Assembly (NCBI RefSeq): GCF_001586275.1
Contig: NZ_CP014545.1
Location: 2,072,501-2,136,500, forward strand
Source of the DNA: Sphingorhabdus sp. M41
GTDB lineage: Bacteria; Pseudomonadota; Alphaproteobacteria; Sphingomonadales; Sphingomonadaceae
DNA: 64,000 nt
Reading direction: 5' to 3'
Each line of letters starts with the position of its first letter. Position 1 is the first letter of the stretch. Below, piece by piece: positions 40,936 to 53,230 of this stretch. The position numbers and the translations under genes were made by a program. The notes under the pieces were generated by a model. That model did no database searches and had not been told where the DNA came from. It was given only the letters and a program-made list of their open reading frames with translations.

Positions 40936-42036
40936 ATGACCGATGTAAATTTAGAGACATTGATTGCTGAAAAGCTGATTGGCAATAGTCCAATAATGCA
41001 ACAGCTGCGTACAATCGTAAACTTTGCCGGCCGCTGCAATAGCTCAATCTTGATCACCGGCCCTTCCGGCAGCGGCAAGGAAGTTGTTGCCGAAGCCATC
41101 CATGCCATTTCAGATCGCAGGAATGCCACCAATATCGCAGTCAATTGCGGTGCGCTTCCGGATCAATTGATCGAGTCCGAATTGTTCGGGCACGAGAAAG
41201 GTAGCTTTACCGGTGCCGTAAACCGGCATGTCGGGCTGTTTGAACAAGCCGATGGCGGGACCATATTCCTCGACGAAATCGGTGATATGCCCATTAACAT
41301 GCAGGTCAAGCTACTGCGTGTGTTGGAAACTCGTATTGTCAACCGTGTCGGAGGCAATCGCAACATCGGCGTCGACATCAGAGTGATTGCTGCAACGCAT
41401 CAAAATCTTAGAGAATGCATCAACAACAAATCGTTCCGCGAAGATCTCTACTATCGGCTTTGCGTAGTGCCCATCGAAGTACCTGCACTCAGCGAACGCA
41501 CTGAAGATATACCTGAGCTAGTCGCTCATTTCCTGAGCAATCTGGGCGGAAGCTCTCCCCTCCCCATTTTTACCAAAGAAGCCTTTGCGGCGCTGCAGCA
41601 TTATGATTGGCCGGGCAATGTGCGCGAGTTGCGTAATGCCATTGAACGGGCCTGTGTTTTCTTTTCTGGCAAACAAGTTTTCGCCGAAGACGTCGCCAAG
41701 CTTATACATTCCGATATAGCTCCGGCTCATCCAACAGGGGGAGCGACGGCATCGACTGCGACAGATCGGTCACTGAAGGACCAATATGCTCCGCATATCG
41801 CCGATCAAGCTCTCCCGGTTTTTGAGCCACGGGGAGATGATGTTCGGGACCTGAATCTTCATCTCCAGCATGAAGAACGCCGAATCATAATGAGAGCGCT
41901 GGACGGATCGCACGGCGTGGTCTCTCGGGCAGCGCGATCGATCAATATAAAGCGGACCACTTTGATCGACAAAATGCGCAAGCATAATATCGACGGGCGT
42001 GTTGCAGAGCCGATGGATTGCCAGGTCACGGCTTGA
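40936..42036 (+). CDS. Sigma-54-dependent activator without receiver domain (FleQ/FlrC/FlbD type)
   Basis: 366 residues from ATG 40936. The AAA+ domain occupies about 15-240 with Walker A GPSGSGKE, the sigma-54 contact loop GHEKGSFTGA (Ser in place of the first Ala of GAFTGA), Walker B GGTIFLDEIGDM and the arginine-finger region FREDLYYRL. The Fis-type HTH is at the C-terminus (AARSINIKRTTLIDKMRKH). There is no N-terminal receiver, so it is not directly controlled by a phosphorelay. Nearby FliA, FliS and FlhA remnants suggest descent from a flagellar master regulator. It converges on the FliS-like gene. Confidence 0.88.
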   Translation: MTDVNLETLIAEKLIGNSPIMQQLRTIVNFAGRCNSSILITGPSGSGKEVVAEAIHAISDRRNATNIAVNCGALPDQLIESELFGHEKGSFTGAVNRHVGLFEQADGGTIFLDEIGDMPINMQVKLLRVLETRIVNRVGGNRNIGVDIRVIAATHQNLRECINNKSFREDLYYRLCVVPIEVPALSERTEDIPELVAHFLSNLGGSSPLPIFTKEAFAALQHYDWPGNVRELRNAIERACVFFSGKQVFAEDVAKLIHSDIAPAHPTGGATASTATDRSLKDQYAPHIADQALPVFEPRGDDVRDLNLHLQHEERRIIMRALDGSHGVVSRAARSINIKRTTLIDKMRKHNIDGRVAEPMDCQVTA

Positions 42037-42052: not shown

Positions 42053-42448
42053 TTATTTAAATATCACGATATCGTTCCAGGTTTTTTCAATCTGTTGAAA
42101 CATCTCTCGGGCAGATTCGATGCGCTCGACACATGTTTCTCTTCCCTCGACCTGAATGCGCTTTGCGGCTTCAGTGTAAATTATGCGCAACGTCTGTGCC
42201 AATTCTCCAGCTGCATCAAAATTTAATTCTTTGTCCAAACCACTGAGAATAGCGCGCGCATTCGCGCGATATTGGAAAAGACGAGCGCCTTCCCCGCGCC
42301 GAGCACTTACGATTATCAGGTCCAGTGTCTCCCCGAGTTCCTTAAAAAGCACAGCGACGAGGCTATAAGGCGGCGTTGCCAGAGCTCTACCTTCCTTGCG
42401 ATCGGTTTGGCAATTCGAGTTTCGATTCTTGCGGGCTTGAAACGTCAT
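42053..42448 (-). CDS. fliS: FliS-like flagellar export chaperone
   Basis: 131 residues from ATG 42448, with GGGAAAG upstream; the open frame extends to 42523. The body is all-helical, with the FliS pattern: YSLVAVLFKELGETLDLIIV, RANAILSGLDKELNFDAAGE in near form, then LAQTLRIIYTEAAKRI and a final FQQIEKTWNDI. FliS keeps flagellin unfolded before export. No flagellin gene is visible in the window. Similarity is by pattern only and the sequence is divergent, so the call is moderate. Confidence 0.6.
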   Translation of the reverse strand: MTFQARKNRNSNCQTDRKEGRALATPPYSLVAVLFKELGETLDLIIVSARRGEGARLFQYRANARAILSGLDKELNFDAAGELAQTLRIIYTEAAKRIQVEGRETCVERIESAREMFQQIEKTWNDIVIFK

Positions 42449-43510
42449 ATTCGATGGCTTTCCCAGATCAGTTTCTACAATCGTTAAAAGAATGGAATTG
42501 CTGGTCGATAGTGATTTGCGCAAAGCACAAAGCTGAGAGTTTCAATTCAAGTTCTGTTAAGTTGGTGAATTATTGTCGGCACGGAAGGACTGAATAAAAC
42601 GCCTGGCCTCTGAGGACAGCGAAGCGGCCTGCAAAAGCCCTCCGGAATGACAATTCCGAAACCTGGCCGAACATCCGTGGTAACATTCGCAAGCATGATA
42701 CATGTCCTTTGCATATTCTACGGCCAATCCGTACGCAAATTAAGGATTTTAAACATTTGTAATCCACGCCATGGGACACTTCATCGGTTGCCATGAATGA
42801 AATTAAAAATTGTCGTCAAGCCGGACAGCACTCCTTCTCCAAGCTCCTCGTGCTGCTTAAGTTTCGGAGTTCATATCGACGCCAATGCAGCGTATATTTG
42901 ACCTTTGCATTGATAGTCGACTGGTCTCCGTCACATCATCAGACCGCTAAAAACGCGACAAGATCAACATTTCCTGCGTTCTGGCGAGAATAGTGGAGGC
43001 TTCAGTTCTGCACCGCATTGCTGAATTCGATACGCGATAAATAGATAAGGGAAGCTTGGGACTGAAGGAACGCCCCGTCACAGTATACCATGACGGGGTC
43101 GCTAGCTTTCGTATCCTTACCCTTGGTTGCCGTACGAGTATTGCGGGGTAACTGCGCGGCAGAAGGTAAGTATTGATTGCACGAGTGATACATCTTCTCA
43201 CTCGCTAGCAACGCGCCAAGTTTTAGAAAATTAGTGACCAGACTAACTTCCAATTTCTCGTACAGCATCGCTATTCCTCACTTTGCAGACCGAGCGCCGG
43301 ATCTTTTGACCTGCGCTCATGGAGTACTTTGCAATGCATGTGCCAATTTTATAAACGCCAAAAATTAGCCGTGGGTCGCGATGGCACTGTCGGAATTTCA
43401 TCAGGTGTGTCGGAAAGTTGACATGCCCGATCCTGCACGTCGAAAACTCGACGCCAATATTGGTTAGAAATTGGCTATTTCGAACTAGTGGCGGAAGCGA
43501 TTTATCAATC
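42449..43510. other. Gene-poor stretch between fliS-like and fliA genes
   Basis: About 1 kb with only one plausible small ORF (43002-43268, minus). Other frames are rich in rare codons and show no domains or ribosome sites. It may be where flagellar genes were deleted. No insertion-sequence ends or tRNA were seen. Confidence 0.4.
43002..43268 (-). CDS. Possible 88-residue protein of unknown function
   Basis: Starts at ATG 43268 with GAGGA four to eight bases upstream. The predicted product begins MLYEKLEVSLVTNFLKLG and is mildly basic, with three cysteines or fewer and no signal peptide. No family is recognised. It lies on the same strand as fliA and the fliS-like gene, in an otherwise empty interval, so it may be a small gene of this module or a chance frame. 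Confidence 0.3.
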   Translation of the reverse strand: MLYEKLEVSLVTNFLKLGALLASEKMYHSCNQYLPSAAQLPRNTRTATKGKDTKASDPVMVYCDGAFLQSQASLIYLSRIEFSNAVQN

Positions 43511-44251
43511 TTAGGCTCCGACCATTGCTACCTGCAGCTTCTCCAATGCACGCTTTTTGATCTGACAAATGCGCACTGCAGACACGTCAAGGATCGCACC
43601 GATCTCATCAAGCTGCAATTCTTCCACAAAATAGCAATTCAGCACCAGTTGTTCGCGCTCATTGAGCTGCTTTAATTTCGCAGACAGCAAATCAGCCATT
43701 TGTGACTTTTCCAATTTATCATGCTGATCATCTTCATCATCAGTAAACAAGCTGCTGGAATCGCTGTAGATTTCGTCGAGTGATCCCACGTGAATATCGA
43801 TCGCTCGGTCTGTATTCCTGCGGAAATCGCCTGGAGCCATGTCCATCGACAGAGCCAGTTCTGAATCAGTCGGCTCGCGGCCCAGTTCCTGTAAAAGCTT
43901 GCCCCGATACCCCCGGACCTTCTTGTGCCAGTCAACAGATGTTCTGCGCAGATTGCATGTCGTTCTCAGGTCATCAATCATGGCGCCCCGCACTCGCACG
44001 TACAGATAGGTACTAAAGCTATGCCCTTGATCCACATATCGTTTTGCGGCCTCTACCATGGCGACAAGTCCCACCTGAATGAGGTCCTCGATTTCCATTT
44101 GGTCGGGTGCGAATGATTTTACCTGCCAGGCAATTTTAGTGACCAAAGACTGGTTCTCCTGGATCAGTCGATTTTCATCTATGTTCGTTGCGCCATAAGC
44201 CTGCGATGCGCGGCTTTTTGTTTTCAACATGTGGTGTCCCCGACTGGTCAT
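43511..44251 (-). CDS. fliA: RNA polymerase sigma-28 factor FliA
   Basis: Sigma factor for late flagellar and chemotaxis genes. 246 residues from ATG 44251 (overlapping the flhA stop as TAATG); a second ATG at 44230 has GGGGA in front. Region 2 reads DLIQVGLVAMVEAAKRY and FSTYLYVRVRGAMIDDLR, typical of FliA. Region 3 has LGREPTDSELALSMDM. Region 4 shows LNEREQLVLNCYFVEELQLD and AVRICQIKKRALEKL. The full set of regions is intact. An anti-sigma FlgM-like gene lies 2 kb upstream. Confidence 0.88.
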   Translation of the reverse strand: MTSRGHHMLKTKSRASQAYGATNIDENRLIQENQSLVTKIAWQVKSFAPDQMEIEDLIQVGLVAMVEAAKRYVDQGHSFSTYLYVRVRGAMIDDLRTTCNLRRTSVDWHKKVRGYRGKLLQELGREPTDSELALSMDMAPGDFRRNTDRAIDIHVGSLDEIYSDSSSLFTDDEDDQHDKLEKSQMADLLSAKLKQLNEREQLVLNCYFVEELQLDEIGAILDVSAVRICQIKKRALEKLQVAMVGA

Positions 44252-45564
44252 TAAATTTGATTTCCATTTGTGACAGCCACCCGGTGGCTGGATCGTGGAG
44301 CGCCTATCTTGGCGTGCACCTCGATCGGTTTATCTTCAGGCAGTTCCAGATACGAAAGTACGGACAAGTCAGGGAACCGCGGTTTCAGCAAAGCACTAAG
44401 CGAACGGCGCACCACCGGAGACGTGATCAAGGCCACGTTGCGGGCCTCAGGCGGCAAGGCCTGGATGCCGGCATTCACCGCTTCAATTATGTTTTGCACC
44501 AGCAGCGGGTCGATTGGATAGCTGGCACCCTCGCCCGCTTTCAGTGACCTGACGACCAGGCCTTCAATTGACGCATCCACAGTCATAATTGGCAGGGGAA
44601 GGCTGTCCGGCACCATGGTCTGGACAATCAAATCGGCAATTTGCTGCCTTACGACTTCGACCTTTGATGCGGTTTCACTATGCAAGCTGGATGCTACCGA
44701 CATCGCGATGGAAATTCTGCGAAAATCTTTTAACGGTATTTTTTCAGCCAGAAGATCACGGCATACTGCGGTAATGGCATCTAGCGACAAGGCCTCTGGG
44801 AGGAGGCTTTCGACAAGCTGCGGCGCCGATTTCTTCAGGTTATCCAGCAGTTTCGTCGCGTCATCGATACCAAATAACTTCGCTGCATTGCGCTCTACGA
44901 CGTCCTTTAGATGGGCTGCAATCACGGTGACTGAGTCGACCACCAGATATCCTGCACCGATGGCGTGATCTTGACTATCGGCATGAATCCACACCGCGTG
45001 CATCCCGAATGTCGGGTCTTTGCAAGGCCGTCCGTCGACCATTGAATCCGCGTCGCCGTGATTGATGGCCAGAACTTCTCCGGGCCACACCATATTCTCG
45101 GCGAGAACCATTCTACCCATCACTATTCGATAACTGTTCGGTTCGAGGGACAAATCCACTTTGATAGGAATGTACGGCACATCGAAGCCAAGCTTCCTGG
45201 ATAGCTGATCCCCGATTCCAGCGACCCGGTTTATCAAAGGAGCGCCCTTTTGGTCTTCAACCAGCGAGAAAAGTCCGTATCCAATTTTGATGACCAGATG
45301 TGTCTGGATCGGAACATCTTCCCATTCGATCCGTCCCGAATGTCTCTCATCATTCAGGCTAGCGATCGGGTCCGGGGACTTGGGATTGTAGAGCAGACAA
45401 AGGGAAAAACCGCCTGCAAAAGCTGCCGCTGTTAAAACCGCAAGAACCGCCACGGCGGGCGAGATGATCGCGACAATCAGGCCAAGCGCCGACACCGCCA
45501 GCAATCCGGTTTTCATGGGCGCTGAAATCATTTTCACCCTGCAAATTCTGCGTGTCATTTTCAT
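44251..45564 (-). pseudogene. flhA: FlhA lacking most of its transmembrane domain
   Basis: 437 residues, whereas FlhA is normally about 690. Only the last two membrane helices remain (GLLAVSALGLIVAII and AVLAVLTAAAFAGGFSLCLL, about residues 20-55). The cytoplasmic domain then follows complete: HLVIKIGYGLFSLV, PNSYRIVMGRMVLAENM, WPGEVLAINHGD, YLVVDSVTVIAAHLKDVV and NVALITSPVVRRSLSALL. The missing six helices and the FHIPEP region form the export gate. No frameshifted copy of them is seen upstream, so the 5' part appears deleted. The remaining frame is intact and overlaps fliA, so it may still be expressed. Confidence 0.8.
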
Positions 45565-46276
45565 CTACAATTCACGATAGACGGTCAGAGAACGGGCAAA
45601 ACGAGCTGCGCTATCCGAAGGCCTGGTTTTTCCCGACTGCCCTCGGCCACTGAGACCTGCTATTGTGATCCGGAGACAATCTGCTGACAGCAGCCGCAAG
45701 CCCATGAGTGATTGCCGCCCGTTCATTGCGAGCCCGGCCCATCCTGACATGCCACCGCGCTGCGCTCGCGCTGTCTGACGGCTGCACACCGCGTCGCCCT
45801 GCACAGCGGTTGGCATGGACAACATCGGTGACTTGCGGCACCCACGGTTTATTATGATCGATTGACTTGACATATATTGCTCAAATTCTCCTGTCAGGGA
45901 GACATGCAATGATCATGCCAATACTATGCAAAAGTCGAGCGTCGGCGTATTAATGTCCGATCTCGTCATCTTTCCGACCGGCTCGGTTTTCGCAAACATG
46001 CCGTACAATCTGTGTGGCATCCGAACAGAAGATGCACTCTGAACGAGCGATGCCGTCCCGATGAACCGGATCAGCAACTCTAGTTCTGGAAATTTTCAGC
46101 GCATCCGCCCCCGATCGGCAAAGAGTATATTCGCCGCCTCACTGTATAGGCCTCCCAAGCCTATCACGCAGAAACCGGGGCCCTTGGCCACCAAGAGAGG
46201 CGATGGGCCCGTTCCGATCCTTTATTAGTGAGAGCCAGCCAGCTCTGGGAATTTCAAAATGTCGGACGGATTGACC
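45565..46276. other. Gap upstream of truncated flhA, 712 bases
   Basis: No convincing gene. One minus-strand frame ends exactly at the flhA start but has unlikely composition. The missing N-terminal half of FlhA is not recognisable in any frame here. A GC-rich imperfect dyad with GGGCCC cores lies near 46177-46212. The interval probably marks a deletion junction. Confidence 0.45.
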
Positions 46277-46567
46277 TCAATATGTCGAATGCACTTCAAG
46301 AACCGCTGCATTAAGAATCTTAACCGCTAGCGCGTCGGTATCGACATGGTAGTCACCGGACAGAAATTGCAGTCTTATATCCGCCACCTTCTTCGCATCA
46401 AACGCAGGTCTTCCGGTCGTCAGAATTTTCGGAACTGCCGGGTTCCCGTCTGGCGCCGTCGATTTCTCGACACTCGCGGCGGCAACACCGCTTTTGGCAG
46501 CAGCCTCCTTCAAACCCAAGCTTGTCCGCCGCTTACTCATAACCAAATAACTTTCATTTGGGTTCAT
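46277..46567 (-). CDS. flgM: FlgM-like anti-sigma-28 factor
   Basis: 96 residues from ATG 46567 (alternative ATG 46540). The N-terminal half is low-complexity and probably disordered. The C-terminal half FDAKKVADIRLQFLSGDYHV followed by DTDALAVKILNAA matches the sigma-28-binding helices of FlgM (Val-Asp-x-x-Lys-Val, Ile-x-x-Gly-x-Tyr-x-Val-Asp, Ile/Leu-Ala-x-Lys-Leu). FlgM normally holds FliA until exported through the flagellar hook. FliA is encoded nearby but the export gate gene is truncated. Divergent but recognisable. Confidence 0.6.
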   Translation of the reverse strand: MNPNESYLVMSKRRTSLGLKEAAAKSGVAAASVEKSTAPDGNPAVPKILTTGRPAFDAKKVADIRLQFLSGDYHVDTDALAVKILNAAVLEVHSTY

Positions 46568-47447
46568 ATCACATCATCGTTACCGCGCCCCAATAGCAAG
46601 TCTCGGCCTGCTGCGTCGTGTCTGACGGCGTGCGTAACTTCCTTCATGGACATCTACGGGTCGTTAGGACAAAATTAAGATCTTGCTGAAGAATATTTTG
46701 GCGACCGAATGGCACCGCTCTTATTTCATTTGGAAGGAACGTTAGCTAGAGGATCCTTCTTTCATTTCGGCTCCGAATATCAACACCGACACAGAAGGCC
46801 TCCCTTGATTGGACTACACGCCGTCAGTGAAACAAATCCCCTCTCAAACCGAATGAAATAGACAGCTATCGACAAAGCCACGCGCATGACGCCCCACAAC
46901 TGCCCCCAAATTGGGTGTAAAATGCTGGTTTCAAGCCAAATTGAGAGGGATATCAATTGATCTCTGATGTCCGGAATGGGATATACAATAATTGGAAAGG
47001 TTGAATACTTTCCACTGAGGTTGACAAGCCCCCGCAGGCCTTAACCTTGGTGAACGTAGTGCACCTGGTATGCGCTCTTCAGTTTTGGGCAGGACGTTTA
47101 ATCTCGTCCTGCCCAATTGAACTTATTGGCCATATCAGTTGGCTGTCATCTCTTCACAAATCGTCGTAATTGACTGACTGCGGGAATAATTCGGATTGTA
47201 CGCAAGACTTCCGAAATTCCGGCGTGCAAACATTAGTATAATTCCTTGCTCGTTTACGATGATTTACTTGCTCTGCATTGAAATAATATGACAATTATTT
47301 TTGAGCTACGTCATAATCAGATAGTTTATATTGATTATATAACAACTTACTCGTACTGCCTCCGCGTGGGTTGGCCAATCAGCTAGGTTCTAGGTTGAAA
47401 ACCAAGAATGGGAATTTGATGTCGCACAACAGCTTTTTAAGCAATCA
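46568..47447. other. Gene desert of 880 bases
   Basis: No gene can be supported on either strand. The right half (47170-47400) is strongly AT-rich. The only clear structure is the perfect hairpin at 47085-47116. The stretch may contain a non-coding RNA or be eroded sequence between a flagellar relic and the next small genes. Confidence 0.45.
47085..47116. repeat. Perfect 12-base inverted repeat with 8-base loop
   Basis: TTGGGCAGGACG (47085-47096) is followed by TTTAATCT and its exact complement CGTCCTGCCCAA (47105-47116). There is no T-run on either side and no adjacent gene end, so it is not a textbook terminator. It could be an RNA structure, a protein-binding dyad or a repeat element. Confidence 0.8.
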
Positions 47448-47630
47448 ATGTCGCGAGGCGTAACAAATGGGAATATCGATGTGCGCAGGTTGATCGAAAA
47501 ACTTCACGATGTGTTGAATTTTCTTGATGAGAAGAATTTGGCGATCCCTGCAATAAAGGTCGAAGAAGCAATCAACGCTTTAAAAATCGTAGAGATGGAA
47601 AACTCAGAGCCATCGACACCGGAACCATAA
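47448..47630 (+). CDS. Small protein of unknown function
   Basis: 60 residues from ATG 47448. The product is helical-looking and charged: RRLIEKLHDVLNFLDEKNLA then IKVEEAINALKIVEM, ending in a Ser/Thr/Pro/Glu tail. No signal peptide. The ordered heptad-like pattern of hydrophobic residues suggests a real, perhaps dimerising peptide. No family recognised. The ribosome site is weak. It follows the gene desert and converges on the small secreted protein gene. Confidence 0.4.
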   Translation: MSRGVTNGNIDVRRLIEKLHDVLNFLDEKNLAIPAIKVEEAINALKIVEMENSEPSTPEP

Positions 47631-47691: not shown

Positions 47692-48003
47692 TTATTGAAT
47701 TTCATAAATCAGAAAAACACATGTCGCCTCTTCCAGGTGCGGGGCAGGATCACATTCCTGTTCGTTCACCTGTATCAAATCAGGTCGGTCGGAGATATCC
47801 GAGCTGATGGATCCATTTCCTGTAAGTTCAATTCTGCGATGGAGCATGACTGTAACGTCGGCCACTGTTGAAGCCGCGCCATTCACATTGGCTGCTGCTC
47901 CCCGCTCATATGTGCAGACGATCATCGCAAGTCCAATCGCTAATGGCAGACGGAAGGCTCGTGCCACGGCAAGTGATGCAGAATATTTTGCGATGGCTAA
48001 CAA
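47692..48003 (-). CDS. Small secreted protein of unknown function
   Basis: Up to 103 residues from TTG 48003; a GTG at 47967 would also serve. The N-terminal 35-40 residues include a hydrophobic stretch (FRLPLAIGLAMIVCTY) of signal or anchor type. The mature part has VTVMLHRRIELTGNGSISSD and two cysteines (EQECDPAPHLEEATC) that may pair. No known family. It lies upstream of several small minus-strand genes of the same kind. Confidence 0.5.
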   Translation of the reverse strand: MLAIAKYSASLAVARAFRLPLAIGLAMIVCTYERGAAANVNGAASTVADVTVMLHRRIELTGNGSISSDISDRPDLIQVNEQECDPAPHLEEATCVFLIYEIQ

Positions 48004-48102
48004 CTCCTTCGGTCTTGAAACACTATCAAGAACTCGGGGGTAATAACGGTCAAAGCGGCAGGATTTTAACTTCTCGTCGAGAACCTTTGGCCGCTGGCTA
48101 TT

Positions 48103-48465
48103 CTATATTTCGCTCTCCCTGTTATTCAAATCCAGACATTGCTCACACCAAGCGGCCGCTTCATTCGTCAACTGTACATAACCAAATTCGTGATTCTTGT
48201 GTAAATGGCATCGTACGACATAGCCTTCGGCCTCCAAAATCGCTGCCAATCTCGTTATAACTGGAATGGGTCTACGCAAGTCATCGACCAGCTTCGACAG
48301 AGCAACGCACCGGTTTTCAGCGCTCGCGATATAGGCTTCGAGAACAAGTTCCCAAGCCGGATCGCCGAAGATTTGTGAATTCGAAAAATATAGATTTCGC
48401 TGCCTCCGGGCGCGAAGCTCGTTTTTAGCACGGGCGATATATTTTGAGTCAACCTCAAGGGTCAT
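48103..48465 (-). CDS. Small winged-helix DNA-binding protein, relative of 40080-40562
   Basis: 120 residues. A basic N-terminus (ARAKNELRARRQRNLYF) leads into SQIFGDPAWELVLEAYIASA, then a winged-helix-like core with VALSKLVDDLRRPIPVITRL, AAILEAEGYVVRC and FGYVQLTNEAAAW. This matches the layout of the regulator at 40080-40562. Its start overlaps the stop of the radC-like gene (coding ends at 48462), so the two may be co-translated. Confidence 0.65.
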   Translation of the reverse strand: MTLEVDSKYIARAKNELRARRQRNLYFSNSQIFGDPAWELVLEAYIASAENRCVALSKLVDDLRRPIPVITRLAAILEAEGYVVRCHLHKNHEFGYVQLTNEAAAWCEQCLDLNNRESEI

Positions 48466-49229
48466 ATTATTTTTAACTTTCTAAAACTGGCCCAGCGATC
48501 GCGCGTTATGATAATGTGATCATGCAAGCATATTTCCAATTCCAGGCAGAGTGCATGAATAGACCTTGTGAATTCTATGTCGGATTTGCTGGGTGTCACG
48601 CTCCCGCCCGGATGATTGTGAGCCAAAATAATCCCGCTTGCATCAAGTTCCAGCGCCCGTTTCAAGATGCTACGGGGCCGAACATATATTCGCTGCGGAG
48701 AGCCATCTCCGAACTCCTGATCACTCAGCAAATGATGTGAACTGTCCAAAAACAATATACGCATTATCTCGTTGGTACGAGAGCCCATGCGCGCCTGCAG
48801 ATATTTGACAAGCCGTTGATCGGTGGCCGAAATGAGCTTGCGAGGCAGTTCATTCCTCAAATTCGCGAGCATGAATTTCTCCGTTGCCTTGAGCAACTTT
48901 AGCACCGGTTCGTTATTACCTAAAACCCGGTTTAGTGCTGCTTCGGACTCGGCGAGCATACGGCCAATTGAACCAAATTCTTCCAGCAGTTCGCGAGAGA
49001 TCCTGCCGGCTTGATCAGGCTCTACAATCTCTATGAGTTGCGCCAGGACCTGTCGGTCCCGATGGTTTTCAGTCGTTTCTGATGGTAAAATGTGCCCATC
49101 ATCAGCAGAGCCAATAATGGATAAGAAGAGGCTATTTGCATGATCATATAAGCTTTTGGGTGAATCGTCATGTCTAGCAATCTCGTGACGTGGGCCACTA
49201 GAGCGATTGTCTGGAGTGAAACTACGCAT
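48462..49229 (-). CDS. RadC/JAB-domain protein
   Basis: 255 residues if started at ATG 49229; ATG 49253 is also possible. The N-terminal helical domain shows HRDRQVLAQLIEIV and RELLEEFGSIGRML, the RadC pattern. The JAMM-type metal site is complete: GIILAHNHPGGSVTPSKSD with an upstream Glu-Ile segment. Domain similarity begins only at about residue 50, and the first 200 bases overlap the gene for a membrane protein in another frame. RadC proteins are common on mobile elements and their biochemical role is uncertain. Confidence 0.75.
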   Translation of the reverse strand: MRSFTPDNRSSGPRHEIARHDDSPKSLYDHANSLFLSIIGSADDGHILPSETTENHRDRQVLAQLIEIVEPDQAGRISRELLEEFGSIGRMLAESEAALNRVLGNNEPVLKLLKATEKFMLANLRNELPRKLISATDQRLVKYLQARMGSRTNEIMRILFLDSSHHLLSDQEFGDGSPQRIYVRPRSILKRALELDASGIILAHNHPGGSVTPSKSDIEFTRSIHALCLELEICLHDHIIITRDRWASFRKLKII

Positions 49230-49471
49230 AACGGCCAAAATCGATTTGCGCATAGTGCAATCGCGAGCAGGCCGATCCAAGCGGCCACGTCGATGACCAA
49301 ATGCCCGGGATCCAGTTTGGCATATTCAAGCGGCGTAAACATGTGAACAGCCGGATCCAATACCAGCATGCCAATAACAACACATGCAACCCATCGTTCC
49401 GGCCCACCTCCCCGATACAACGCATAAACGCAGATCGCACCGAGGAAGAGAAGAAAAACGAGAGTTCGCAT
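49031..49471 (-). CDS. Membrane protein of unknown function overlapping radC
   Basis: 146 residues with about four to five hydrophobic helices: LVFLLFLGAICVYALY, WVACVVIGMLVLD, LVIDVAAWIGLLAIALCA and a final MIMQIASSYPLLALLMMG. It starts at ATG 49471 and ends inside the radC-like coding region, an overlap of about 200 bases. The strong hydrophobic pattern indicates this frame is real. No named family; similar small membrane proteins occur in sphingomonads. Confidence 0.65.
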   Translation of the reverse strand: MRTLVFLLFLGAICVYALYRGGGPERWVACVVIGMLVLDPAVHMFTPLEYAKLDPGHLVIDVAAWIGLLAIALCANRFWPLCVVSLQTIALVAHVTRLLDMTIHPKAYMIMQIASSYPLLALLMMGTFYHQKRLKTIGTDRSWRNS

Positions 49472-49919: not shown

Positions 49920-50489
49920 CTAGGCTGTCAACAGACTGGAAAGAGACTGGGAAACTGACAAGCCAATCAATACAATTGCCAAAATTCCGATAGTCAGAAT
50001 GACGATGATCGCAATTCTTTGCGCGGTTCCCCAATTACCTTCTGTCTCCTTCAAGATTTGCGGCCACACGTTCAAATCATGCTCGGCATCCAAGTCATAA
50101 AGGACGGATACTTCTTCAAGCATGGATGAACCCGACCGCTCGTCCTGAGGTCCTTCTGGACCGAAAGTGTCATCATAGGGAACACCTACCGGATCATATA
50201 ATATCCGATCATAGGTGCCGGATGCCCTCGCATATATTAATGCGGCTTCATCTCGGGTGGCCGCCCCCAGTACACGTCGGGCGCTCACCAAGCGTTGGTC
50301 CACTGCTGGCTTGGAAATCTCAAGAATCCGGGCAATTTCCTTGGAGGATTTTCTGAGCACCACGAGATGCAAGCATTCTCGCTGCTTTGCAGTTAACTTT
50401 GCCACGCGCGATGACTCTAGCTCGATATCGTCCAAGGTTAAGTCCCATAAATTGCGCTTCTCCTTACCGAGTCGGCCTATGGAACGCAA
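49920..50489 (-). CDS. LuxR-type HTH protein with C-terminal membrane anchor
   Basis: 189 residues. An N-terminal HTH (about 30-80) reads LTAKQRECLHLVVLRKSSKE and IARILEISKPAVDQRLVSAR, typical of NarL/FixJ-type domains. A linker of about 80 residues follows, then one strong membrane helix (IAIIVILTIGILAIVLIGL, about 158-178) near the end. There is no receiver or autoinducer domain. A DNA-binding domain tethered to the inner membrane recalls ToxR-type regulation but with the LuxR fold. Confidence 0.78.
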   Translation of the reverse strand: MRSIGRLGKEKRNLWDLTLDDIELESSRVAKLTAKQRECLHLVVLRKSSKEIARILEISKPAVDQRLVSARRVLGAATRDEAALIYARASGTYDRILYDPVGVPYDDTFGPEGPQDERSGSSMLEEVSVLYDLDAEHDLNVWPQILKETEGNWGTAQRIAIIVILTIGILAIVLIGLSVSQSLSSLLTA

Positions 50490-50757: not shown

Positions 50758-52890
50758 CTAGACTACGGAGCGGTCGCCCGAAGGCATCCATTCATCCAGA
50801 ATTGCCAGGAGCTGAACCAAGTTGAGCGGCTTCGACAGATGGGCCTGCATACCGGCAGATAGCGCATCTTCTATATCCTGGTCATATGCATTGGCGGTCA
50901 TGGCAATGATCGGCAGGGACTCGGCCGAAAATCCGCGTGCACGAATTTGTCTTGTCGCCTCAATACCGTCGAGCTTAGGCATCTGAATATCCATCAGCAC
51001 AAGTTCGAACGGCTGTTCTGAGTTATGCGCCTCCTCGACGACCGCGAGCGCTTCGATTCCATTTCGGGCCATTACACATTCATGCCCGTATTTGTCCAAC
51101 ACGGCTTCTATAAGTCCCTGATTTATCTGATTGTCTTCTGCCACCAGGATTTTTCTACCGGCCGACAAAACGCTTTGCTCAATTTCTGCATCCAACTGAT
51201 TTACAATTGTCTCCTGACTTTCCGCCTCCATCGACCGAACCGGAAGCGTGACGAAAAAAGTCGTGCCTTTGCCGAATTCGCTTTGCAAGCTAATCGCGCC
51301 GCCCATCAAATCCGCAAGTTGGCGACTAATCGCAAGGCCCAAACCAGTACCTCCAAATTTGCGGGCAGTTGATTCGTCGGCTTGACTGAATTCGTCAAAA
51401 ATTACGGATTGCCGTTCGGGCGCGATGCCGATGCCAGTGTCAGAAATCGCCAATTCTATCAGTTCATGATTACCAAGGCCGATTTTTCTGGCTTGAACCG
51501 ACACGCCTCCCTGCTGGGTAAATTTTACGGCATTGCCGATGAGGTTTGAGAGAATCTGACGTATGCGCAACTGATCGCCCAGAAATTTTTGCGGCAATGA
51601 ATCATCATATTCCGATTCCAGTTTCAGACCTTTTTGAGCTGCGGCGGCTTTCATCAGCCGGACCGAACCTTCAATCGCATGCCGAATATCGATCGGCTCT
51701 TCGGCCAACGTCATCTGCCCCGCATCGATTTTCGATATATCCAATATATCATTGATCAAAGCGACCATCGAGTGGCCCGACTCAGAGATTAATTCAGCAT
51801 ATTGGCGTTGTTCGTCATCCAACTCGCTATCCAATAGCAACTGGGTAAACCCCATTACGCCATTCATCGGTGTTCGTATTTCGTGGCTCATATTGGCCAG
51901 AAAACTCGACTTGGCCTTGATCGCGGCTTTCGATGAAGCCAGTCGCATACTGGTATCCAGCTGCAAGCGCTCTGCCTGATTATCAACCCTTGCATCTCGG
52001 ATCGACACGATTGCCAGAAGCAACATTGTTACAACTGCGAGCACGCTTAGTTGAAAATTTGCATCGAAAAGTTCGAGTTTGAGGCCCCAATTCACCAACA
52101 GGCTTAGTAAAAATGGTACGCCAAGCAGAAATGGCATCATTCGCCTAGCGCTAGCGCTTCCACGGCCGTCCGCCACCAATATCGCTATCCATCCTCGATC
52201 GGGACGAGCGAGTAGAACCATTGCAAATAATATCGCAAATGCAATCGTGGTGTGGATTGCCATCGTCGTAAACAACGCCACGGCATAAAGAGAGGAAGCG
52301 CCAAAAGCATAAGCAATCAACGCCAACATTGCGATCCCGGATCCCAGCGTTGTTGAAAAATTGTAAAGATGGTCCTTGGTACTCTGGATCGGCATCCGGA
52401 GCAGCGCGGTTCCCAAAAGGAAAAAGCACAGCGAAGTCGCGATAGACATATGCTCGATTACAAAAGACGAATTTTCAGGCCAGATAGCGGCATCAATGCC
52501 GGACGACGGTGATTTCACGATAAAGGCGACATTGATTGCGGAACCGGTCATTGCCAAAAATGCGCTCAGTTGGACGACGATCGTTGAAAACCGTTGCCTA
52601 GGGTAGATCGACCAAAGGAGAATGGATGCAGAACACAACGCGAAAAGAAATGCGGTGCTTGGCACCATGGCAGCAAATGAAGGGTGGAGGCTCGTAAGCT
52701 CCTTTATGCCCCTGCCCCAACCGAAGACAAGAACCGAAAGTGTCGTTAACAGCACCAGGAGCGGAGGCGCAACTTTCCAGATCCAATTGGTTAGAATTGT
52801 GCCGTGGAAAAGAGTGGTTTGACCGTTCTCAATTTTATTTTGTAGAGGAAGTGCTTCATTTTCCGCTATTTCACTGAAAACCTGAGGCAC
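50758..52890 (-). CDS. Hybrid histidine kinase with multi-helix membrane sensor
   Basis: 710 residues. About eight membrane helices in the first 300 residues form the sensor. HisKA has [19 protein letters not shown] at about 330-350, HATPase has [11 protein letters not shown] and [14 protein letters not shown], and the C-terminal receiver has [13 protein letters not shown] and [13 protein letters not shown]. No Hpt domain is present. The downstream partner could be the REC-Hpt protein encoded at 56389-57174. The upstream gap contains a large inverted repeat. Confidence 0.88.
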
Positions 52891-53230
52891 CTTTTTATCC
52901 TTTTATAATCTGGACCAAAAAGGACAGACACCTAAGTTGACCTAGCATATTTAAGTTACGGCTCAAATTGGTAAACTTAAATATTAGGGGCCATTGCTAA
53001 TTTACCATTTCGCAGATCTATTGAAGCAATCCTGACCTGCGATGTCTTTTCTTTCATTCCAAAACTAAAAGCGGTTATTCAGTCAATGAACACCTCCGCA
53101 AAGGTTGTATGGATTACAAACCCAATCGCTTGTTCAGGGCATTGCGATATTGGTCGTCTACACAGATGATACCGATTTTCGGATTGCCAGTTCTAGCCTG
53201 CTATCGTTTCATATGCTGAATATCAGAATG
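52891..53230. other. Gap upstream of the first hybrid kinase, 340 bases
   Basis: No gene. Contains the inverted repeat 52947-52984 and, nearer the kinase start, a further TAAGTT direct repeat unit (52933-52938). A short frame here resembling the end of a receiver (IICVDDQYRNALNKRL) has no start and is probably chance. Confidence 0.45.
52947..52984. repeat. 11-base perfect inverted repeat upstream of hybrid kinase
   Basis: ATATTTAAGTT (52947-52957) and AACTTAAATAT (52974-52984) are exact complements separated by 16 bases. An additional CTAAGTT lies 20 bases before the left arm. The spacing of about two helical turns suits a dimeric regulator. It lies 57 to 94 bases upstream of the kinase start. 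Confidence 0.6.

Follow-up and report, generated by a model that had tools for sequence, protein, structure and literature searches.

A shortened FlhA retained alongside FliA and FlgM in four Parasphingorhabdus/Sphingorhabdus species: possible part of an export-free sigma28 control module

The 64,000-nucleotide stretch of Sphingorhabdus sp. M41 analysed here, which we call the window, includes an flhA gene that has lost most of its membrane part and is still open. The question it raises is whether this gene (flhA') is a passenger in decay or codes for a protein that is kept in use, as in the sequence-only reading, which saw in it a possible sink, anchored in the membrane, for FliS and other export chaperones. 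The window's genome (G000) is a single contig of 3.34 Mb, the other genomes carrying the truncated form are G003, G015 and G024, and by genus we mean Parasphingorhabdus/Sphingorhabdus. The gene is as follows.

44251..45564, minus strand: flhA', best read as FlhA residues 1 to about 40, with TM1, joined in frame to residues about 304-704, the C-terminal part being TM8, the linker and D1-D4

The truncated gene and its origin

The frame has 437 amino acids, an ATG start and no internal stops, as the sequence-only reading had it, and the plus strand over the same stretch has many stops. A full FlhA has eight TM helices. These and the FHIPEP loop are absent as a full set from flhA', through an in-frame deletion of 267 residues found in all four copies, which bears out the earlier claim that six helices (TM2-TM7) and the loop are missing. 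The C-domain is there in full. The Pfam FHIPEP model matches with 248.7 bits (cut-off 29.1) over profile positions 258-655 of 657. The FlhA equivalog TIGR01398 gives 272.1 bits, under its cut-off of 772.1, and 818.7 bits for the full-length FlhA of P. flavimaris. flhA' is a derived FlhA by descent, yet it falls outside the defining tests of the export gate, scoring above the cut-off of the broader Pfam model and below that of the equivalog.

In the AlphaFold2 model of FlhA' the C-domain is mostly at pLDDT 70-90, and residues 1-87 are below 50, so that the model is uninformative on the helices. The best Foldseek match of the modelled C-domain is 6ch2_C, which is FlhA-C in complex with FliT-FliD (E 3.3e-33, TM-score 0.92 by target length), and the predicted structure has the four-domain fold of FlhA-C.

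For the two helices the best assignment is TM1 and TM8, with the native start and TM1 fused in frame to TM8. The first 42 residues of the window's FlhA' score a mean of 50 and a maximum of 60, gapless, against TM1 of 13 full-length relatives, and at most 26 against TM7; in a control of 200 shuffles against 3 relatives, 95% scored under about 34. The copies of G003, G015 and G024 also score higher with TM1, by smaller margins, and that of G015 is a near tie (TM1 mean 40.2, TM7 39.1). When the start is placed at TM1, all 12 comparisons (four copies, three references) have their best gapless junction at a loss of 267 residues, joining residue 31-42 to residue 299-310. A DNA alignment with P. flavimaris of 206 bases at 62%, spanning the end of the transglycosylase gene and the start of flhA, puts the two flhA starts in register. 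Our initial reading of the helices as TM7 and TM8 was dropped given the TM1 scores, this alignment and the junction scan. As the number of helices lost is even, the C-domain should be cytoplasmic.

A FlhA match starting at profile position 249-258 was found in four of 98 genomes (G000 and 97 relatives), all in the one genus, where the carriers are four of 32 genomes. When a profile built from the four truncated copies was scanned over those 32 genomes, the copies themselves gave 798-845 bits, a FlhA of 704-705 aa in 18 genomes gave 585-626 bits, a second FlhA type gave 424-451 bits and the full-length FlhA of G000 only 129 bits; at E 1e-20, eight of the 32 had no match. This ranking makes flhA', by sequence, an orthologue of the FlhA that serves the genus's primary flagellum. 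Three genomes also have a third FlhA-like protein, 666-711 aa long, whose FHIPEP matches are split (G006 C1:2180737-2182560, G031 C1:116798-118621, G036 C5:112831-114639), with a further FliP-like gene nearby in G006 and G031, and this type possibly belongs to a non-flagellar type III system.

The four carriers form one clade both in the FlhA-C tree (support 100/99, 19 rows) and in the FliA tree (98/97, 19 rows), and the simplest history is thus a single deletion event followed by descent. The sequence-only reading had proposed looking for the same form in related genomes, and it was found, free of stops, in four species of one clade. A search for related loci with the single FlhA' protein as query found nothing, and with the alignment as query it gave 36 loci with one truncated copy, that of G003 (L059). 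The plasmid protein search gave 366 records, each under 60% identity, the best being in Sphingomonas paeninsulae, within a full-length flhA.

Genes and promoter-like boxes around flhA'

The neighbouring features of the window are these.

40936..42036, plus strand: sigma54 activator (AAA+ and HTH_8), 70-75% identical to orthologues in three flagellated relatives
42053..42448, minus strand: fliS, Pfam PF02561 at 41.6 bits (cut-off 26.7), by alignment without the N-terminal FlhA-docking tyrosine
43002..43268, minus strand: second sigma54 activator remnant, an N-terminal piece of 88 aa
43511..44230, minus strand: fliA, sigma28, 239 aa from the start common to relatives; a longer reading of 246 aa starts at 44251
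45565..45909, minus strand: transglycosylase remnant; in relatives a lytic transglycosylase gene sits between P1 and flhA
46277..46567, minus strand: flgM, anti-sigma28, Pfam PF04316 at 28.2 bits (cut-off 25), with orthologues in the three other carriers
47692..48003, minus strand: 103-aa protein with two conserved Cys and a hydrophobic segment at the N-terminus; candidate FliA output gene

In flagellated G022 the order, with gene names from our own reading of the ORFs, is flgA, flgM, a small gene, transglycosylase, flhA, fliA, flagellin, a second sigma54 activator, fliE-fliF-...-flhB, fliD, fliS and a sigma54 activator, and P. flavimaris (G011) has the module genes in the same order. In the four carriers we recognise only flgM, flhA', fliA, fliS, the last sigma54 activator and broken remnants, and the genes that flank this module also flank the flagellar cluster of P. 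flavimaris. The other three carriers have the second-activator remnant in shorter or frame-shifted form.

In G003, G015 and G024, each 100% complete, our searches found no other FlhA, no FliP (the partner gate protein), no flagellin and no rod or hook family. These three genomes have fliA and flgM without flagellar structural genes, the FlgM of G003 being slightly under the Pfam cut-off. G000 has a second flagellum and therefore does not belong to this type: at C1:2690000-2729800 (L043, L044) lies a cluster of flagellar and chemotaxis genes of a different type, which includes a full-length FlhA and a FliP, and that FlhA is only 24% identical to FlhA' over 319 residues. Searches of G000 for FliA and FliS matched the relic copies alone, the second cluster giving no match of its own.

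With regard to the junction of flhA' and fliA, a TAATG overlap had been described. It is present for the 246-aa reading of fliA, in the window and by coordinates in G015, but not for the start common to the flagellated relatives, the ATG at 44230, 21 nt further in; from the flhA' stop to that shared start there are 18-26 nt in all four carriers. FliA of G003, G015 and G024 is 81-85% identical to that of the window, which gives 183.9 bits with TIGR02479 (cut-off 189.6); the window's FlgM and FliS are likewise under their NCBIfam cut-offs. Three of the four carriers have a FlgM that passes the Pfam cut-off (G003 24.3 bits, cut-off 25), and the FliS-like gene, present in all four, likewise passes its own in three (G003 23.9, cut-off 26.7).

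Other conserved frames lie near the module. An HTH protein of the LuxR/sigma-region-4 type, with a hydrophobic segment at its C-terminus (49920-50489, minus strand), adjoins it in all four carriers. A 60-aa frame beside the 103-aa gene (47448-47630, plus strand), which has no Pfam match, is conserved in the carriers and some flagellated relatives. A conserved frame for a 146-aa membrane protein (49031-49471, minus strand) overlaps the start of the RadC frame (48462-49280, minus strand) by 250 bases in another reading frame, and the like is seen in the three other carriers and P. flavimaris; RadC may start further in than its frame suggests.

The promoter-like features are as follows.

42717..42743, minus strand: sigma28-like box upstream of fliS, aligning with the pre-fliD box of flagellated G022
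43331..43345, minus strand: sigma54-like promoter P2 (TGGCACATGCATTGC), after fliA, today the closest box of this kind upstream of fliS
43409..43452, minus strand: two imperfect repeats, GTCGA..TCGAC and GTCAA..CCGAC, upstream of P2
45906..45920, minus strand: sigma54-like promoter P1 (TGGCATGATCATTGC), before the flhA'-fliA operon
46653..46678, minus strand: sigma28-like box (TTAATTTTGTCCTAACGACCCGTAGA) upstream of flgM
48043..48069, minus strand: sigma28-like box upstream of the 103-aa protein gene

The sigma54-like boxes (TGGCACGNNNNTTGC) P1 and P2 are at orthologous places in all four carriers with no or one mismatch, and have counterparts in G022 and G011. In a scan at up to one mismatch, run without a shuffled control, both matches in each of loci L033, L034 and L035 are P1 and P2, and there are three matches in 24 kb of the window, one inside fliS. 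P2 is in relatives the promoter of the second sigma54 activator. The two imperfect repeats before it are likely activator sites, and the aligned relatives have GTCGG..CCGAC-like repeats at the corresponding place. P2 and the repeats are retained although the coding sequence behind them is shorter or frame-shifted in three carriers.

For sigma28 a first pattern, TWAAN15RCCGWTAA, was dropped, as it gave 27 matches in nine genomes against 97 for the reversed pattern, finding the fliC promoters of four flagellated genomes and nothing in the relic loci. The second, TTAATTN{13,14}CCGTWRA, was derived from fliC and flgM promoters with one fliS box already known, and its matches at fliC and flgM are therefore not independent; it gave 22 matches in ten genomes against four for the reversed pattern, and in the whole of G000 just two, upstream of flgM and fliS. 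Its matches in flagellated G022, G007 and G028 include sites at or near flgM, fliC and fliD, where the fliC boxes and the flgM boxes of G022 and G007 were assigned by position and the remaining flgM and fliD ones by distance, and in G011 it matches at flgM and fliC. Matches outside the clusters are at G015 C1:1949375, G024 C1:1443984 and G028 C5:27985; another at G022 C1:161283 has no clear gene in its surroundings, and one is in G025 (C12:206997), a genome without FliA. A third, looser pattern, made after the alignments were seen and so descriptive, has three matches in each of L033, L034 and L035, nine of nine at flgM, fliS and the 103-aa gene; in 20 kb of the window its two matches are the 103-aa gene box and a site elsewhere, the boxes of flgM and fliS being passed over, as both end in CCGTAGA. 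A further sigma28-like box is at 52980 (minus strand), upstream of a hybrid histidine kinase (50758-52890).

The 103-aa protein of the window, which has no Pfam or NCBIfam match, is probably exported or secreted. Homologues of its gene are present in 19 of 32 genomes (E 0.01), and in the three flagellated genomes examined, G011, G007 and G006, the homologue adjoins the flagellar cluster and is preceded by what is by eye a similar box, with TTAG for TTAA in G011.

Selection, conserved surfaces and the rival explanations

Omega was estimated with model MG+F3X4 on sets of four sequences and, for FlhA, 339 C-domain codons; with dS near or above 1, partly saturated, and some pairs giving no value, it is 0.170 for the flhA' C-domain of the four carriers, against 0.034 for full-length FlhA of four near flagellated relatives and 0.029 for four others. 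For fliA it is 0.055 in the carriers, 0.048 in the near flagellated and 0.030 in the others, and for the other relic genes 0.196 (FliS), 0.475 (FlgM), 0.136 (sigma54 activator) and 0.245 (103-aa gene). Identity of the C-domain is 57-73% among carriers and 88-95% among near flagellated species, and that of FliA 81-89% and 84-91% respectively. flhA' is thus under purifying selection, five times weaker than that on full-length FlhA, and fliA is hardly changed. Neutral evolution simulated from the P. flavimaris sequence to 0.2 substitutions per site gave a mean of 4.9 stops, and zero in only one of 500 runs, against none in any of the four real copies. The sequence-only reading would have been given up if close relatives had the full gene here and this were a private deletion of one strain under relaxed selection; relatives do have the full gene and constraint is about five-fold relaxed, but more than one strain has the deletion.

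Taking columns invariant in 14 flagellated relatives (the distant FlhA type L061 excluded), with domain limits that we take to be those of FlhA, all four copies keep 0 of 15 in the linker and 111 of 229 in the C-domain: 29/60 and 5/14 in D1, 18/35 in D2, 23/53 in D3 and 36/67 in D4. For the membrane part the count is 4/31, understated since it used the older TM7-TM8 reading.

For the residues of the FlhA-C dimple and linker we follow the roles given in the available portions of PMC10965912 and PMC8166844. The docking dimple at the D1/D2 interface is present in FlhA': every copy has Asp456, Pro457, Phe459 and Gly460, three have Thr490, which is Ala in the window, and Val482 and Val487 vary. The Pro442 column has Asp in 14/14 flagellated relatives and three copies, and His in the window, whose copy is with these changes the most divergent of the four in the dimple. 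The check proposed for the chaperone-binding surface therefore comes out in favour of conservation for most of the dimple, but not for Val482, Val487 and the window's residue 490. Of the GYXLI motif GYxL is kept, the last place being Phe in all four copies and Val in flagellated relatives. In the linker, for the window, G015, G003 and G024 in that order, residue 351 is R/P/P/P (Q in flagellated relatives), 354 is W/R/E/R and 356 is D/D/A/N, so that of the export switch Glu351/Trp354/Asp356 the window retains two of three (Trp354 and Asp356) and it is changed in the other three copies. That the dimple is kept and the switch lost holds as a trend across the set, but not strictly for every copy.

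The main rival to the sigma28 switch that we favour is slow decay: FlhA' would be a passenger, open only because the downstream fliA needs translation through flhA'. The short distance from the flhA' stop to fliA, with overlap in two of four carriers if fliA is read long, fits such a passenger, as do the five-fold higher omega and the large loss of linker and membrane columns. However translation coupling requires an open frame and not constraint on amino acids, for which omega of 0.17 and the 111 flagellate-invariant C-domain columns are the evidence, and neighbouring leftovers in the same loci, the transglycosylase and the N-terminus of the second activator, have degenerated. Since flhA' is free of stops in four species, has omega of 0.17 and retains most of the dimple, it is not plain decay, as the sequence-only reading had argued, and we think the passenger unlikely, while giving it more weight than the other alternatives.

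A sink for export chaperones is in our view improbable, and less likely than slow decay. It would account for a mostly conserved dimple and for the FliS-like gene kept in all four carriers, but the available text of PMC8166844 has Tyr-10 of Salmonella FliS entering the FlhA dimple, and the four carriers have C, N, R and L at the docking-tyrosine position, against Tyr in the three flagellated relatives aligned; the equivalence with Tyr-10 is by a weak alignment (E 0.4, hand-extended over six residues). Three of the four genomes also have no flagellin for FliS to serve, and a sink working in the known manner thus loses ground on both counts. It is very improbable that FlhA' interacts with another export machine as helper or dominant negative. 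The second flagellum of G000, at C1 2.69-2.73 Mb, would provide one, but three of the four carriers have neither FliP nor a full FlhA, for which reason we set this link aside, and the 24% identity between FlhA' and the full FlhA of G000 is also against it.

A proposed sigma28 module without export and its known relatives

What remains in the carriers is the FliA-FlgM control set, and for this reason we look to sigma28 control rather than chaperone storage. We suggest, with about even confidence for and against, that the locus is a retained export-free sigma28 control module in which FlgM, or a complex containing it, docks on FlhA' at the membrane. The lineage would have lost its primary flagellum and retained the late-gene checkpoint. 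The sigma54 activator would be expected to drive flhA'-fliA and perhaps fliS, and FliA to drive flgM, fliS and the small gene for the probably exported protein, if the boxes are active and paired with these regulators. FlgM would hold FliA in check, and FlhA' would take up FlgM at the membrane, alone or as FliA-FlgM or FliS-FlgM, probably by the retained D1/D2 dimple. Such uptake would stand in for FlgM export in setting how much FliA is free, be it by release or by sequestration.

The docking role is suggested by reported contacts of the kept proteins and by a proposal for H. pylori. In the part of PMC8527033 available to us, Salmonella FlgM binds FliA, FliS binds FlgM, and FliA is the export chaperone of FlgM. 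In the accessible text of PMC3930126, FlhA-C and not secretion is the proposed means by which FlgM inhibition is lifted in H. pylori, and a truncated FlhA supports the RpoN regulon without export. A bolder version, which we hold only tentatively, is that FlhA' is a two-helix membrane receptor for the anti-sigma factor and with FliS makes an export-free partner switch over FliA and a probably secreted output; if true, a flagellar checkpoint has been kept alive as ordinary signalling.

In favour of the switch we count the same deletion in all four carriers, the single clade that they form, FliA retained in three genomes where the flagellar genes looked for are missing, the omega pattern, the freedom from stops against the neutral simulation, the dimple, the boxes and the reported contacts. 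Against it we count the five-fold relaxation of flhA' and the weak constraint on FlgM (omega 0.475), the scores of G003 FlgM and FliS under Pfam and of the window's FliA, FlgM and FliS under NCBIfam cut-offs, and the window's copy, most divergent in the dimple and with two of three linker switch residues. The sigma28-like match in G025, which has no FliA, the small 103-aa gene as sole candidate output, and the FlhA-FlgM contact, taken from one distant organism through the available part of a review, also count against it.

Among known systems, FlhA' shares with the FlhA export gate (FHIPEP/TIGR01398) its orthology by sequence and gene order, the modelled FlhA-C fold, most of the dimple and the GYxL motif. 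It differs in the 267 missing residues, the poorly kept linker, the score under the equivalog cut-off and the absence of FliP from three of the four carrier genomes. With H. pylori, in the accessible text of PMC3930126, it shares the proposed relief of FlgM through FlhA-C binding and not secretion, but H. pylori has a full flagellum, whereas that of the carrier system is gone. The kept proteins are among those for which the available part of PMC8527033 reports mutual contact in Salmonella (FliS-FlgM-FliA), but the carrier system is without its flagellin or exporter and its FliS has lost the docking tyrosine.

The nearest parallel is with non-flagellated Legionella of the L. oakridgensis type, in which, as the available text of PMC5655016 has it, fliA and flgM were kept after loss of the flagellum, the flagellar regulon of L. 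oakridgensis being reduced to FliA and FlgM and FlgM control necessarily different from export. Retention of these two genes is thus already known, and a survey, in the part available, found FliA in 41% of non-motile genomes (PMC12199754). The carriers additionally keep FlhA-C, FliS, the sigma54 activator and both promoter classes. The literature searched, as titles and abstract openings with thin cover of subscription journals, describes no shortened FlhA that persists with FliA and FlgM, and a conserved FlhA C-domain on a two-helix anchor within a FliA-FlgM set, together with FliS and both promoter classes, seems to be new. How FlgM is controlled without a flagellar exporter is the question raised for L. 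oakridgensis in the available text of PMC5655016, and the docking domain of FlhA' on its two-helix anchor is a definite candidate part for such control in four species. With the promoter-like boxes of the circuit still readable, this makes the question directly testable in marine bacteria and shows which flagellar parts may serve as regulators alone.
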